Shown: piece by piece, positions 1,172 through 9,774 of the stretch | How the letters are laid out: each line of letters starts with the position of its first letter | Position numbering within the stretch: position 1 is the stretch's first letter | NCBI GenBank assembly: GCA_036005065.1 | Contig: DASYQW010000011.1 | Span: forward strand, 1-48,975 | DNA: 48,975 nt | Origin: Candidatus Methylomirabilota bacterium | GTDB taxonomy: Bacteria > Methylomirabilota > Methylomirabilia > Rokubacteriales > DASRDR01 | Direction: 5' to 3' | Translations under genes and position numbers: made by a program | The notes under the pieces: model-generated | Seen by the model: only the letters and a program-made list of their open reading frames with translations | What the model was told of the DNA's origin: nothing | Database searches by the model: none

Positions 1172-1201
1172 TTGACACGGGCAGCGGGCTGGGACCACAA
1201 T
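1172..1201 (+). promoter_or_regulatory. Sigma70-type promoter for riboswitch 1
   Basis: A consensus -35 box TTGACA (1172-1177) is followed 18 bases later by CACAAT (1196-1201) as a -10 box. Predicted transcription start is about 1207-1209, exactly at the first paired base of the fluoride aptamer. The agreement between promoter and aptamer position supports both calls. Confidence 0.7.
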
Positions 1202-1207
1202 TCCATC

Positions 1208-1265
1208 GGGTGATGGGGTTCGCCTCCTAACCGCTGCCCCACGGGCGGCTAATGACCCCTACCGA
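1208..1265 (+). promoter_or_regulatory. Fluoride riboswitch aptamer (crcB motif), copy 1
   Basis: The sequence follows the fluoride aptamer consensus. P1 is GGTG (1209-1212) with CGCC (1221-1224), enclosing ATGGGGTT. A joining segment ending AACCGC follows, then a GC stem-loop (1231-1248), then GGCTAATG and ACCCCTACCG. The loop GGGGT (1215-1219) can pair with ACCCC (1255-1259) to form the characteristic pseudoknot. The layout matches the Thermotoga petrophila fluoride riboswitch as I remember it; the one visible departure is CTAATG in place of CTGATG. The 3' strand also forms the 5' arm of the terminator at 1255-1281, so fluoride binding should prevent termination and switch expression on. 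The downstream genes are the CBS remnant, the DUF4129/MoxR/DUF58 operon and the enolase. Confidence 0.9.
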
Positions 1266-1284
1266 AAAGCTCGGTAGGGGTTTC
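1255..1284 (+). terminator. Intrinsic terminator, expression platform of riboswitch 1
   Basis: An 11-base-pair perfect stem (1255-1265 with 1271-1281, loop AAAGC) is followed by TTTCGTG. The 5' arm ACCCCTACCGA is also the pseudoknot strand of the aptamer, so aptamer and terminator exclude each other. A second weaker hairpin (GGCTCC/GGAGCC, 1294-1312) follows. Confidence 0.8.
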
Positions 1285-1387
1285 GTGTCTCAAGGCTCCT
1301 GCTGAGGGAGCCCTTTCCTGTTCGAAGTGCAAGGCGCATGGTCGCTTCCGGACCCGGTCAGTCGAGGGCCCGGGTCACCATCAGTGA

Positions 1388-1555
1388 GGAGGTCCGGCAG
1401 AGCGTCGCCGGTTGGCGTCGTGCTCCATCCTGACGCAGCACCAGGTGAAGCGGCTGGTGGTCGTGGACGGGGCCGGCCGCCCGCGCGGGCTGGTCGACCG
1501 GCGCGACGTTCTCCGCTCGCTCGCCGCCGAGCCCGCCGCCGGGAGTGGGAATTGA
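1388..1555 (+). pseudogene. Remnant of a CBS-domain protein
   Basis: Translation in the frame ending with TGA at 1553-1555 gives ILTQHQVKRLVVVDGAGRP followed by RGLVDRRDVLRSLA. This is the typical second half of a CBS domain (nucleotide-sensing regulatory module). No first half of the domain is readable in this frame, and an upstream stop at 1385-1387 closes it. Another frame starting with ATG at 1338 contains RVTISEEVRQ, which may be the first CBS strand displaced by a frameshift. There is no good start codon or ribosome-binding site. I read it as a decayed first gene of the operon under riboswitch 1; its end overlaps the start of the next gene at 1545. A short functional peptide cannot be excluded. 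Confidence 0.6.
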
Positions 1556-2525
1556 GCGGCCGGTGAGTCCGATCGGGCGGCCGCATGGCAGTCTCCGAGG
1601 ATGGACGCCGGTCGTCGCGTCGGGGGGCGCGGCGCTGGGCGGGCTCGCCTTCGCGCTGGCGGCCCTCGAGGGGTCCCGGAGCGGGGCGGCTGGGGGACCG
1701 GCGGCGCGGCTCGTCCTCGGCCTGCCGGAGTGGCTGACGACACTGGTCCTCGCGCTGCTCTCGGTGGCCATTCTGGTGTTTCTCGCGCTGCTCCTACCCC
1801 GCCGGGTCCGGTGGAGGCGGAAAGGGGACGAGGAGTTCCAGCTCTACTACGAGCCTCCGAGGGTGTCGCCATGGCTCCTGCTGCTCCTCGGCGTGCCGGC
1901 CCTGACGCCCGTGGGAGCCCTGGTGGCGCTCTGGTGGGTGGACTGGGCGCCATTCAGGGAAGGGGTCGCCGGACTGGTTCTCGGGGCTCCCTCCGCCCCG
2001 CCGGGCGAGCCGGCCCCCGCTCGGCCGGATTCGCTCCCACCGATCGCGTCACTCCCGGCGTTCAGCGGCGCCGTCGCGGCGCTGGCCGTCCTCGCCGGAC
2101 TCGTGAGCCTCGGCCTCGTGCTGTGGATCCTTCTCGACGATCGGCTGGCCCGGTGGTGGGCCAGGCCTGCGGCGGCCGGTCGCCCCGAGCCTCTGCTCGA
2201 GGCGGTGGAGGCGAGCCTGGACGACCTTCGGCGAGAGCCCGATGCGCGACGGGCCATCATCCTGTGCTATCGGCGCTTCGAGCAGTGGCTCGCCCGATCC
2301 GGATTCCCCCGGGCCCCCTGGGAGACCCCGACCGAATTCATGCGGATCGCGCTCAGTCGGCTGCCGCTGCCGCTGGGGGCGGTGTGCACCGTGACGCGGC
2401 TCTTCGAGCTCTCGCGGTTCAGCCACCACCCGGTCGGACCCTCCGAGCGCGACGACGCGGTCGGGTCGCTGACCGAGATCAAAGCGGCCCTGGAAAGGGC
2501 CGAGTCCCGTGCCCCCGCCGCCTGA
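1545..2525 (+). CDS. DUF4129-domain membrane protein of the MoxR operon
   Basis: A 326-residue protein from a GTG start. Four hydrophobic segments lie at about residues 22-42, 62-86, 106-130 and 175-200, with a proline-rich linker before the last. The C-terminal soluble part carries the DUF4129 signature: an acidic stretch, a YRRFEQWLA segment and the WETPTEFMRIAL motif. Proteins of this kind commonly sit with MoxR ATPase and DUF58 genes, as here, in membrane-associated systems thought to act on envelope or protein maturation. The start overlaps the CBS remnant by 11 bases. GTG at 1563 is an alternative start, with no clear ribosome-binding site for either. The next gene overlaps by 17 bases. 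Confidence 0.75.
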   Translation: MGIERPVSPIGRPHGSLRGWTPVVASGGAALGGLAFALAALEGSRSGAAGGPAARLVLGLPEWLTTLVLALLSVAILVFLALLLPRRVRWRRKGDEEFQLYYEPPRVSPWLLLLLGVPALTPVGALVALWWVDWAPFREGVAGLVLGAPSAPPGEPAPARPDSLPPIASLPAFSGAVAALAVLAGLVSLGLVLWILLDDRLARWWARPAAAGRPEPLLEAVEASLDDLRREPDARRAIILCYRRFEQWLARSGFPRAPWETPTEFMRIALSRLPLPLGAVCTVTRLFELSRFSHHPVGPSERDDAVGSLTEIKAALERAESRAPAA

Positions 2526-2994
2526 GCGTCGCTGGCCCGGGATTCTCGCAGGGTACACGGTCTTGGTGGGCCTCCTGGCGCTGGCCGCGACCCCTCTCTA
2601 CCTCGCCGTCGAGCCGAGCGCCAAGCCGGTGGTGGTCCGGCTGGCCGTCGCCGCGGTCCTGGGCGTCGCGCTGATCCACCTGCGAGGAGAAGTGCGGGCG
2701 CAGATCGCCGCCCAGCCCCCCTCGGCCTTCGAGCGGGCCCTGGCCCGGGTGCCCGTGGAGTCACACCTGGCCCCGATCTTCGTGACGCTCCGGGAGGAGA
2801 TCCGGATCAGCATGAGGAGCCACGGGTACTTCGCGCAGGTCCTGTGGCCGCGGCTCCTCGACCTCGCGGCCCGGCGACCCGGCGGCCCGCCCGCGACCTG
2901 CCCGGCCCGGCCCGGCGGGCGGCGGCTCCTCCGGCGGGGCCCGCCGCTCGCCACCCTTCGAGCCCTGATCGCCGGGATCGAGGAGCGGACATGA
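2509..2994 (+). CDS. Small membrane protein, MoxR operon, unknown function
   Basis: A 161-residue protein starting GTG inside the end of the DUF4129 gene and ending TGA at 2992-2994, overlapping the MoxR ATG at 2991. Two hydrophobic segments lie at about residues 10-32 and 38-60, then a soluble arginine- and proline-rich tail. I recognise no family. Tight overlaps on both sides suggest translational coupling and a role in the same complex as MoxR, perhaps as an anchor. The low-complexity Arg/Gly/Pro tail resembles GC-driven drift, so the C-terminal half may be poorly conserved. Confidence 0.65.
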   Translation: MPPPPERRWPGILAGYTVLVGLLALAATPLYLAVEPSAKPVVVRLAVAAVLGVALIHLRGEVRAQIAAQPPSAFERALARVPVESHLAPIFVTLREEIRISMRSHGYFAQVLWPRLLDLAARRPGGPPATCPARPGGRRLLRRGPPLATLRALIAGIEERT

Positions 2995-3947
2995 AGATCG
3001 ACGCGCTGGCCGGCCGGAGCCGGGACGTCCTGGCCACGCTCGCGCAGGTCATCGTCGGGAAAGAGGACGTGCTGGAGCGGATCCTCGCCGCGATCCTCGC
3101 CAACGGGCACATCCTGATCGAGGACTACCCGGGTCTGGCCAAGACGCTCATCGCCCAGCTCTTCGCCCAGACCCTGGACCTCGACTTCAAGCGCATCCAG
3201 TTCACGCCCGACCTGCTCCCGAGCGACATCACGGGCAGCTTCCTCTACGATCAGCGGCAGGGGCGTTTCGAGTTCCGCCGGGGCCCCGTCTTCACCCACC
3301 TGCTCCTCGCCGACGAGATCAACCGGGCGACGCCCAAGACCCAGGCGGCGCTCCTCGAGGCGATGCAGGAGGCGCAGGTCACCGTCGAAGGCGACCGGTT
3401 CCCGCTCGATCCCCCGTTCCTGGTGATCGCCACCCAGAACCCGATCGAGCTGGAAGGCACCTATCCGCTCCCCGAGGCCCAGCTCGACCGCTTCCTCATG
3501 CGCCTGGGGATCGGGTATCCGAATCCCGAGCAAGAGCGGGAGATCCTGGCCCGGCGCCGGCAGCGGCGGGAGGACGCCGCGCGCGTGCCCACCATCATCT
3601 CCCGGACGGAGCTGCTGGCCATGCAGGCCGCGCTCGAGGACGTGTTCGTGAGCGAGGCGATCGAGCGGTACATCGTGGACCTGGTCCGCGCGACGCGCGC
3701 CGACGGCCGTGTGGCGCTCGGAGCCTCGCCCCGAGGGGCACTCGCCCTGCTGAAGCTCGCGCGGGCGCAGGCGGCCCTCCGCAGTCGCGACTTCGTGACG
3801 CCCGACGACGTCAAGGAGATGGCCGTTCCGGGCCTGGCTCACCGGCTGATCCTCCGGCCCGAGCTCTGGGTCTCCAGGGTGTCCAGCGTTCAGGTGGTGA
3901 GCGATCTCCTCGGCCAGGTCCCGACCCCCAAGGCCGACCCCTCGTGA
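2991..3947 (+). CDS. MoxR-family AAA+ ATPase
   Basis: A 318-residue AAA+ ATPase. Walker A is EDYPGLAKT (the MoxR form of GxxxxGKT), Walker B is LLLADEINR, and the MoxR-typical segments FTPDLLPSDITG, EAMQEAQVTV and ATQNPIELEGTYPLPEAQLDRF follow in order. The C-terminal lid has the arginine-finger and sensor region ending LAHRLILRPE. MoxR proteins are cytosolic chaperone-like ATPases that assemble or insert metal cofactors into partner proteins, usually with a DUF58 or VWA protein. The ATG at 2991 overlaps the preceding stop, and the stop overlaps the DUF58 GTG, so the genes are coupled. The operon lies behind fluoride riboswitch 1, which would make this module fluoride-induced if transcription continues through. 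Confidence 0.93.
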   Translation: MKIDALAGRSRDVLATLAQVIVGKEDVLERILAAILANGHILIEDYPGLAKTLIAQLFAQTLDLDFKRIQFTPDLLPSDITGSFLYDQRQGRFEFRRGPVFTHLLLADEINRATPKTQAALLEAMQEAQVTVEGDRFPLDPPFLVIATQNPIELEGTYPLPEAQLDRFLMRLGIGYPNPEQEREILARRRQRREDAARVPTIISRTELLAMQAALEDVFVSEAIERYIVDLVRATRADGRVALGASPRGALALLKLARAQAALRSRDFVTPDDVKEMAVPGLAHRLILRPELWVSRVSSVQVVSDLLGQVPTPKADPS

Positions 3948-5221
3948 CCGCCCGGCGCACTGGGCTCACGGTCTCTGCCCTGAGCCTGGTCGCGCTCGCG
4001 CTCTTCCTCGCGGTCCTCGCGGGCCGGGCGGAGCTGCTCCTGGTCGCCCTGCCGCTGCTGCTCAAGCTCGTCGCCGGCGCGCGCGACCCGACGCCGCCGG
4101 CCTACGACCTGGACTACGAGGTGTCGGCCGAGCGGGTGTTCGAGGGCGATCGACTGGTCGTGACGGTGACGCTGACCGCGCGCTCGCCGGTCCCCCTCCT
4201 CGAGCTGGCGGAGCCGTTGCCCTCGTCCGTGGAGGTGGTGTCGGGCCTCAACCGAGCGGTCCTGGCGCTCGAGGCGGGCCAGCGCGGTCGATGGACCTAC
4301 GAGGTTCGCTGCCGGGAGCGCGGCCACTTCAGCCTGGGTACCGTGCACGCCCGGATCTGGGAGCGATCGGGGCTCCGGGTGCTGGAGGGCCGCCACCTCG
4401 ATCCGAAGCCCGTCAGGGTGTACCCGCGGGTGGTCCCGCTCCGCCGGGTGCCTCGCCCGCTCCGCACCCAGACCTCGGTCGGGAACTACGTCTCCCCGAC
4501 CTTCGGCGCGGGACTCGAGCCCGGGGACATCCGGCCGTTCGCCCCCGGCGATCGGGTCAAGCACGTGAACTGGCGCGCCTCCCTCCGGCTCGGCGCGCTC
4601 TACGTCACCCAGTATCAGCAGGAGCGGAACGCCGACGTCGTGCTGATGCTCGATACGCTGAGCCAGGTGGGCCTTGCCCCCGAGACCAGCCTCGACGGCT
4701 GCGTGCGGGCGGCGGCCTCGCTGGCGCGGGCGTACCTCGCCCGGAAGGACCGGGTCGGCTTCATCGAGTACGGCGGGGTGATCCGCTGGGTCAGGCCGGG
4801 CTCCGGCCCGGCCCAGCTCGAGCGGCTGCTGGATGGGCTGGTGGCCGCCCAGCCGCTCTTCACCTACATCCGGAAGGACCTGAGCCTGGTTCCCCCTCGG
4901 GTGCTCCCGCCCCAGGCCCTGGTCATCGCCCTGAGCCCGCTGCTCGACCCGCGCTTCCTCGACGCCGTGGGGGACCTCGCCGCCCGGGGCTTCGACCTCG
5001 TGGTGCTGTCGGTTTCCCCCATCGACCTCACGCGGGCCGCGCTCGCGCCGACGCCACTGACGGACCTGACCTGTCGGCTCTGGGCCCTGGAGCGGCGCGC
5101 CCAGCTTGCCGAGCTGCGTCGGCGCGGGCTCGTCGTCCTCGAGTGGGCGCCGGATGCGCCGGTCGAGCTGGCGCTCGCCTCGCTCGGGGGACACCGCCGG
5201 CGCATGGTGGTGGCCGGCTAA
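3944..5221 (+). CDS. DUF58-domain protein, partner of MoxR
   Basis: A 425-residue protein with GTG at 3944 overlapping the MoxR stop. Two closely spaced hydrophobic segments (about residues 8-27 and 28-44) anchor it in the membrane. A beta-rich region with a CRERGHFSLG segment follows, then the DUF58 motif RPFAPGDRVKHVNWRASLR at about residues 198-216 (consensus R-x-Y-x-x-G-D-x-x-R-x-x-W). The VWA-like half contains VVLMLDTLSQ and DRVGFIEYGG. DUF58 proteins accompany MoxR ATPases and resemble integrin-type metal-binding domains; the molecular job here is not known. The stop codon overlaps the following ATG as TAATG. Confidence 0.9.
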   Translation: MTARRTGLTVSALSLVALALFLAVLAGRAELLLVALPLLLKLVAGARDPTPPAYDLDYEVSAERVFEGDRLVVTVTLTARSPVPLLELAEPLPSSVEVVSGLNRAVLALEAGQRGRWTYEVRCRERGHFSLGTVHARIWERSGLRVLEGRHLDPKPVRVYPRVVPLRRVPRPLRTQTSVGNYVSPTFGAGLEPGDIRPFAPGDRVKHVNWRASLRLGALYVTQYQQERNADVVLMLDTLSQVGLAPETSLDGCVRAAASLARAYLARKDRVGFIEYGGVIRWVRPGSGPAQLERLLDGLVAAQPLFTYIRKDLSLVPPRVLPPQALVIALSPLLDPRFLDAVGDLAARGFDLVVLSVSPIDLTRAALAPTPLTDLTCRLWALERRAQLAELRRRGLVVLEWAPDAPVELALASLGGHRRRMVVAG

Positions 5222-5727: not shown

Positions 5728-6693
<966 letters not shown>

Positions 6694-9644: not shown

Positions 9645-9680
9645 CAAACAAAAATCCGGGCCCCGGTGGGAGCCCGGAAT
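9645..9680 (-). terminator. Intrinsic terminator of riboswitch 2
   Basis: On the minus strand TCCGGGC (9678-9672) pairs with GCCCGGA (9661-9655), extended by an inner CCC/GGG pair, and is followed at once by TTTTTGTTTG. It lies between the fluoride aptamer and pup, as expected for an expression platform. Confidence 0.8.
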
Positions 9681-9697
9681 CAGAAACTCCCACCGGG
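9662..9697 (-). promoter_or_regulatory. Antiterminator stem of riboswitch 2
   Basis: On the minus strand CCCGGTGGGAG (9697-9687) pairs perfectly with CTCCCACCGGG (9672-9662), which contains the inner part of the terminator. The same CCCGGTGGGAG can instead pair over 11 positions (two G-U) with the aptamer 3' strand CTCCTACTGGG (9713-9703). With fluoride bound, that 3' strand is held in the pseudoknot and the antiterminator should form, giving expression. Confidence 0.65.
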
Positions 9698-9702
9698 CAC
9701 AA

Positions 9703-9758
9703 CCCAGTAGGAGTCATCAGCGGCCGGCCGCGGTTTAGAGGGCGAACTCCATCGCCCG
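9703..9758 (-). promoter_or_regulatory. Fluoride riboswitch aptamer (crcB motif), copy 2
   Basis: Reading the minus strand from 9757: GGGCG-ATGGAGTT-CGCCC forms P1 and its loop, then TCTAAACCGC, a GC-rich stem-loop, CTGATG and ACTCCTACTGGG. GGAGT (9750-9746) can pair with ACTCC to make the pseudoknot. Every conserved block of the fluoride aptamer is present, including the full CTGATG, so this copy fits the consensus better than copy 1. It is followed by a terminator/antiterminator pair and then pup, the DUF6062-like gene, antiporter and usp on the same strand. Fluoride should switch the operon on. Confidence 0.92.
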
Positions 9759-9774
9759 CGTCGTTGATGATCTC

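Follow-up and report, generated by a model that had tools for sequence, protein, structure and literature searches.

For the pup leader of a Candidatus Methylomirabilota bacterium we propose, with a probability of roughly two in three, that fluoride turns on a pup-DUF6062-exchanger-Usp operon at the level of transcription, by means of two coupled hairpins, H1 and T. Without fluoride, a strand B would capture the 3' strand of the aptamer (strand A) to form H1, which is itself probably a moderate terminator. H1 would thereby withhold B from a third strand, C, so that T, a strong terminator, can form and end transcription. When fluoride is present and locks the pseudoknot at its A-U linchpin, A would stay in place and B would be free to pair with C (helix H2) before the 3' arm of T exits the polymerase; T would then be prevented and pup transcribed. 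Because C closely resembles A, both hairpins could be governed by one strand of the aptamer. This three-way logic is supported by energetics, by a chance test and by recurrence in unrelated fluoride leaders. Coordinates refer to the window, i.e. the whole stretch of DNA that was analysed (48,975 nt); the pup leader and its operon lie on the minus strand.

Aptamer, strands and predicted folding of the pup leader

The aptamer (9765-9701, minus strand) matches Rfam model RF01734 over the full model length with 54.4 bits (gathering score 34, E = 2e-12). It is a real fluoride aptamer of this family, for which fluoride binding and activation are predicted. A further RF01734 match, riboswitch 1 (1200-1268, plus strand, 46.7 bits), bears out the sequence-only reading in that the window holds two aptamers of one class. 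Transcription of the pup leader is predicted to start near 9768 (minus strand), preceded by a putative promoter at 9805-9775 (TTGACC at 9805-9800, a 19-nt spacer and TATACT at 9780-9775) that was read by eye and was not listed by our promoter scan, which was limited to spacers of 16-18 nt. With these spacers, the scan found no promoter-like site between T and pup, so T must be read through if pup is to be expressed from the leader promoter.

From 9713 (minus strand) onwards, the leader reads CUCCUACUGGG-UUGUG-CCCGGUGGGAG-UUUCUGAUUCCGGGCUCCCACCGGGGCCCGGA-UUUUUG. Strand A (CUCCUACUGGG, 9713-9703) comprises the 3' pseudoknot strand of the aptamer plus flank, according to sequence and RF01734 match, and provides the 5' arm of H1. 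Strand B (CCCGGUGGGAG, 9697-9687) can act either as the 3' arm of H1 or as the 5' arm of H2, and strand C (CUCCCACCGGG, 9672-9662) is the 3' arm of H2. H1 joins A and B over 11 positions, exactly as the sequence-only reading had it, by 9 Watson-Crick and 2 G-U pairs, and H2 joins B and C by 11 Watson-Crick pairs. The additional statement that "the same strand" pairs perfectly with 9672-9662 is correct if B was meant; pairing of the aptamer strand itself with 9672-9662 was rejected, since A and C are identical at 9 of 11 positions and are near-copies, not complements. H1 is followed by a U-rich tail (UUUCUGAUU, 9686-9678), of which UUUCUGAU has 5 U in 8 positions; compared with the tails of relatives' sole terminators, this suggests that H1 may terminate by itself. 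T (9678-9655), the sole terminator-like site that our terminator scan listed in the leader, is a predicted intrinsic terminator of the form UCCGGGCUCC-CACC-GGGGCCCGGA followed by UUUUUG, with 10 bp, the loop CACC and a U-tract UUUUU at 9654-9650. Strand C indeed lies inside T, as had been noted before, and occupies the loop together with 4 nt of the 5' arm and 3 nt of the 3' arm.

Such an arrangement is rare by chance. When the 45 nt that follow B were subjected to 20,000 dinucleotide shuffles, two of the shuffled sequences matched H2 in the strength of their duplex with B, and six included an exact complement of B. A simple stem search on an initial set of 96 fluoride leaders ranked the H2 of the pup leader as the strongest. 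The folding energy of the complete leader is 5.1 sd lower than that of its own shuffles.

As isolated segments, H1, H2 and T have energies of -19.8, -26.3 and -20.0 kcal/mol. Folding was calculated with ViennaRNA, an equilibrium model that has pseudoknot and polymerase outside its scope, and the fluoride-bound state was mimicked by keeping 9717-9708 from pairing, in lieu of the bound pseudoknot. In the unconstrained fold, H1 plus T (-63.8 kcal/mol) is ahead of H2 (-54.3 kcal/mol) by 9.5 kcal/mol; with 9717-9708 blocked, H2 (-54.3 kcal/mol) leads T (-52.7 kcal/mol) by 1.6 kcal/mol. The full-length partition function assigns probabilities of 1.0 to H1, 0.98 to T and 0 to H2 when the aptamer strand is free, and of 0.94 to H2 and 0.06 to T when it is blocked. 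Folding with and without the pseudoknot constraint, which the sequence-only reading had suggested as a check, thus came out in its favour when a block on the aptamer strand took the place of the pseudoknot. H2 joins the 3' arm of H1 to T and is exclusive of both in these ensembles, as expected of a three-way platform. With the aptamer strand blocked, the probability of H2 rises from 0.79 for a transcript 3' end at 9664 to 0.996 at 9662. H2 is therefore near complete at 9662, seven bases ahead of the end of T's 3' arm, which would give it a head start if folding order and kinetics in the cell follow this course.

The pup operon and DUF6062

Downstream of the aptamer, four genes are closely spaced on the minus strand. 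The first, pup (9588-9388), is preceded by a Shine-Dalgarno-like AGGAGG and encodes 66 amino acids that match the Pup profile (PF05639, 78.3 bits) and end in the C-terminal GGE (VQRGGE). It is followed by genes for a Cys-rich DUF6062 protein with CPxC and CxWH motifs (9381-8392; PF19538, 54 bits), a Na+/H+ exchanger-family transporter (8324-7140; PF00999, 126.9 bits) and a universal stress protein (Usp, 7137-6715; PF00582, 112.3 bits), these three being the fluoride or ion-stress genes of the operon. The genome encodes a second pup (G000:C365), 58% identical to the fluoride-linked one, and two Pup-ligase family proteins; the fluoride-linked pup is thus a paralogue in a genome where ligase-family genes for Pup exist.

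Most DUF6062 matches in the order, and many outside it, lie downstream of a fluoride aptamer. Apart from the gene in the window, DUF6062 genes right after fluoride riboswitches were seen in Methylomirabilota, Thermodesulfobacteriota/Desulfobacterota and others (L076-L096). The family appears to be one of fluoride operons, and we found no mention of it in the literature searched.

In relatives, short frames termed here mini-Pup (MAVKSYVQRGGE, MDLLVEAELKRKNYVQRGGE and MVAEQNAEEFVKNYVQRGGE) are located between fluoride riboswitch and DUF6062 in L063 (region 1410-1449), L071 (minus strand) and L064 (2226-2288), and the stop of each overlaps the start of DUF6062. What has been retained here is either the Pup tail, in the form of a peptide, or DNA that serves as ribosome-binding context. 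In L024 (1606-1700), the C-terminal half of Pup without the GGE end (VKSYVQRTGTPSS) follows a fluoride riboswitch. In G038:C102, G042:C259 and G027:C93, the match to the Pup profile ends at position 63 and the frame continues for longer, which means that the GGE end may have been lost or extended.

As to the other fluoride switches of this genome, the third one (G000:C269; L166, minus strand) precedes a frame with the DUF6062-like motif GFCSRHAWG. Riboswitch 1 (1200-5221 with its downstream region, plus strand) precedes frames that by eye resemble a DUF4129/MoxR/DUF58-type operon, which would be an unusual fluoride target. The window also contains, at 5744-6693 (plus strand), an enolase remnant in two frames with the N-terminal start directly joined to the C-terminal barrel, representing either a pseudogene or an assembly error. 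Enolase is a classic target of fluoride.

Fluoride leaders of the order and beyond

Riboswitch 1 has a two-way platform with an H1 hairpin at 1256-1280 (plus strand) and the tail UUUCGUGU. The sampled fluoride leaders of the same order are two-way, as is the third such switch in the genome. In this order, H1 tails carry five U in riboswitch 1, L006, L013, L016 and L025 and four U in L009, and our search found no other terminator in any of these. Riboswitch 1 does contain a second hairpin (GGCUCCUGCUGAGGGAGCC, 1294-1312, plus strand) with the weak tail CUUUCC, and its strand B (1271-1280) can pair with 1296-1305 over 10 bp, 3 of them G-U (shuffle p of about 0.013). In the folding model, this hairpin falls only from 0.98 to 0.57 on switching, so that riboswitch 1 would carry a weak version of the B-C pairing with partial switching predicted. 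Its earlier description as the simpler design applies to H1, a two-way hairpin, and neglects this second hairpin with its weak H2-like pairing. Likewise, the two switches of the window had been assigned to different platforms; H1 is the same aptamer-strand hairpin in both and in the other leaders sampled from the order, and the contrast is one of degree.

The pup leader shares the features of the two-way, P4-type platform insofar as the 3' strand of its aptamer forms the base of a hairpin (H1) that is followed by the U-rich UUUCUGAU. It departs from this type in that H1 is not the sole terminator candidate, a separate T being present at 9678-9655. Since the H1 tail is as U-rich as those of some sole terminators in relatives, the leader looks like a simple platform plus a coupled terminator; H1 probably terminates on its own, and the leader is probably an ordinary two-way platform to which a second, coupled terminator was added.

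Neither an RF01734 search of 99 relatives nor a DUF6062 scan of GTDB genomes revealed a close homologue of the pup leader. A wider set of 237 fluoride leaders was therefore collected, from the same order and class, one other phylum and the phylum to which the Syntrophaceae genome L081 belongs (assumed to be Desulfobacterota); no fluoride sites were found in the phylum of G097. An H1 hairpin was identified in 216 of the 237 leaders by a search with a length limit, 77 had a separate downstream terminator, and 63 were left after removal of near-duplicates, a set assembled without selecting on H2. Here, pairing between the H1 arm and the terminator downstream in the same leader averages -15.71 kcal/mol versus -13.06 kcal/mol for permuted combinations (z = -7.1, 0/5000), and omission of the window hardly altered this (-15.54 kcal/mol, z = -6.6). 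Composition-matched shuffles gave -12.89 kcal/mol (sd 0.33) for the same 63 leaders, 20 of which reached p <= 0.05 against these shuffles, with about 3 expected. Most of the signal came from the 44 leaders without a U-tract after H1 (z = -6.0). Holding the aptamer strand led to a predicted large loss of the terminator in 8 of the 63 leaders, compared with 3.7% of swapped pairs. Swapping arms and terminators between leaders as a test of their pairing is conservative because many terminators share an aptamer-like arm, and the permutation and composition nulls were added to it.

Similar three-way leaders occur in Desulfobacterota and in another phylum. A clear case is L168/L081 (Syntrophaceae), with the H1 tail CGGGCAAG lacking a U-tract, the C strand CUCCUGCCAGG and a U-tract after T; L109/L108 is a further clear example. 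L271, L289, L257, L275 and L180 share with these two and with the pup leader the exchange between A-B, B-C and T, a strand C that resembles the aptamer strand and a U-tract after T. Unlike the pup leader, all of them lack a clear U-tract right after H1, and the gap between H1 and T amounts to 12-24 nt versus 8 nt. In eight leaders from the phylum of L081 (L196, L206, L243, L257, L271, L275, L281 and L289), B reads GGGGUAGRRG and C ends in UCYURCCCC or close to it. Column 8 of their H2 is G-C in five cases and A-U in three, with no break, the C-side letter of this pair being unspecified in the motif by which the leaders were selected. Both sides change in only this one of 10 H2 pairs, reflecting perhaps one or two events, and the covariation score was reached in 4 of 500 shuffles. 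The sequence-only reading had looked to covariation across homologues for a decision; what can be offered is a single covarying H2-type pair in eight analogous leaders, none of them a close homologue. A count of pairs across phyla was dropped as circular, the sequences having been chosen for complementarity. L271, L257 and L206 have yet another terminator-like hairpin about 60-110 nt past the aptamer strand.

Owing to the U-rich tail of H1, T could be a simple backup. H1 alone would then be controlled by fluoride, as in riboswitch 1, an uncoupled T would lower the leak, and H2 would be a side effect of C duplicating A. Such tandem terminators would be in line with the design of H1, which is the usual one of the order with a tail matching some sole terminators of relatives, with the resemblance of C to a copy of A and with the mini-pup or truncated pup operons of relatives, which carry H1 only. 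We nevertheless consider this unlikely: expression of pup from this promoter needs read-through of T, for which the model offers no route without H2, shuffled sequence seldom equals H2, and coupling of this kind is also seen in leaders whose H1 lacks a U-tract.

The coupled switch that we favour has a weak point of its own. In the blocked ensemble, 9707-9702 pairs with 9661-9656 at a probability of 0.93, and this helix adjoins the U-tract of T, so blocking of T may be incomplete. Of the fluoride logic put forward in the sequence-only reading, the three-way exchange is backed by energetics, shuffles and recurrence, and the word "blocks" is too strong. If the 9707-9702/9661-9656 helix terminates, antitermination in the H2 state may leak or fail; at worst, H2 plus this extension would be a terminator of its own, with a stop in both states and the leader acting as a damper or being a broken switch. 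We judge this improbable, because the extension has only 6 bp, two of them G-U, below a 4-nt bulge, versus the uninterrupted 10 bp of T, because the operon that follows is intact, with genes that fit ion or fluoride stress, and because known fluoride switches turn expression on. That the two hairpins arose by chance in a GC-rich leader, with no regulation through H2 or T, is highly improbable: many swapped arm-terminator pairs do yield moderate duplexes, but the shuffles rarely matched H2 and the composition-matched null was rejected across leaders.

Relation to published fluoride riboswitches

The fluoride pseudoknot forms regardless of ligand, and fluoride locks the A40-U48 linchpin; without fluoride, a downstream strand displaces the pseudoknot and a terminator results (PMC11077080). 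In the Bacillus cereus crcB riboswitch (RF01734), which belongs to the same class, the 3' pseudoknot strand likewise becomes part of a hairpin that corresponds to H1 in the absence of fluoride, but there this hairpin is the sole terminator, whereas the 3' arm of H1 in the pup leader also contests a separate T via H2 (PMC11077080). A full covariation model of fluoride riboswitches published in 2026 comprises the aptamer and an overlapping hairpin P4 with downstream poly-U, matching H1 of the pup leader; in the accessible sections of that paper, the model provides for a two-way PK/P4 exchange only, with neither a second terminator nor a B-C helix (PMC13273304). Exchange of the A strand is accordingly published for the two-way form (PMC11077080 and the same sections of PMC13273304). 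We found no three-way fluoride platform in the openly accessible titles, abstracts and passages searched, and an earlier mention elsewhere is possible. Nor did the titles, abstracts and passages searched contain a link between fluoride riboswitches and Pup.

Three-way platforms are known in other riboswitch classes, and what would be new here is the fluoride class. Purine, SAM-I and T-box leaders employ terminator, antiterminator and anti-antiterminator helices; they respond to different ligands, and several are OFF switches. Like the pup leader, they have mutually exclusive helices and an antiterminator that overlaps the 5' arm of the terminator. In the pup leader, as modelled, the antiterminator would be released by the ligand rather than destroyed, and C mimics the aptamer strand.

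We tentatively suggest, at slightly less than even odds, that these leaders represent a second, widespread fluoride expression platform, in which the downstream terminator mimics the aptamer 3' strand and B chooses between aptamer strand and terminator, and which in this genome controls a dedicated second Pup. If so, it would escape published full-length models, which build on the hairpin next to the aptamer. Studies of co-transcriptional folding use the fluoride riboswitch as a main model, and it has been described as a direct two-state exchange; in the three-way form, a remote terminator would be driven by the same aptamer, and two-way and three-way switches in one genome would be a natural pair for comparison. 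The three-way form may also partly explain natural leaders that do not switch in pooled assays, where 323 of 1901 were functional according to the accessible sections of PMC13273304. For the biology of these bacteria, pup and the uncharacterised DUF6062 family are placed in predicted fluoride-controlled operons, and fluoride stress would be tied to protein tagging through a second Pup.
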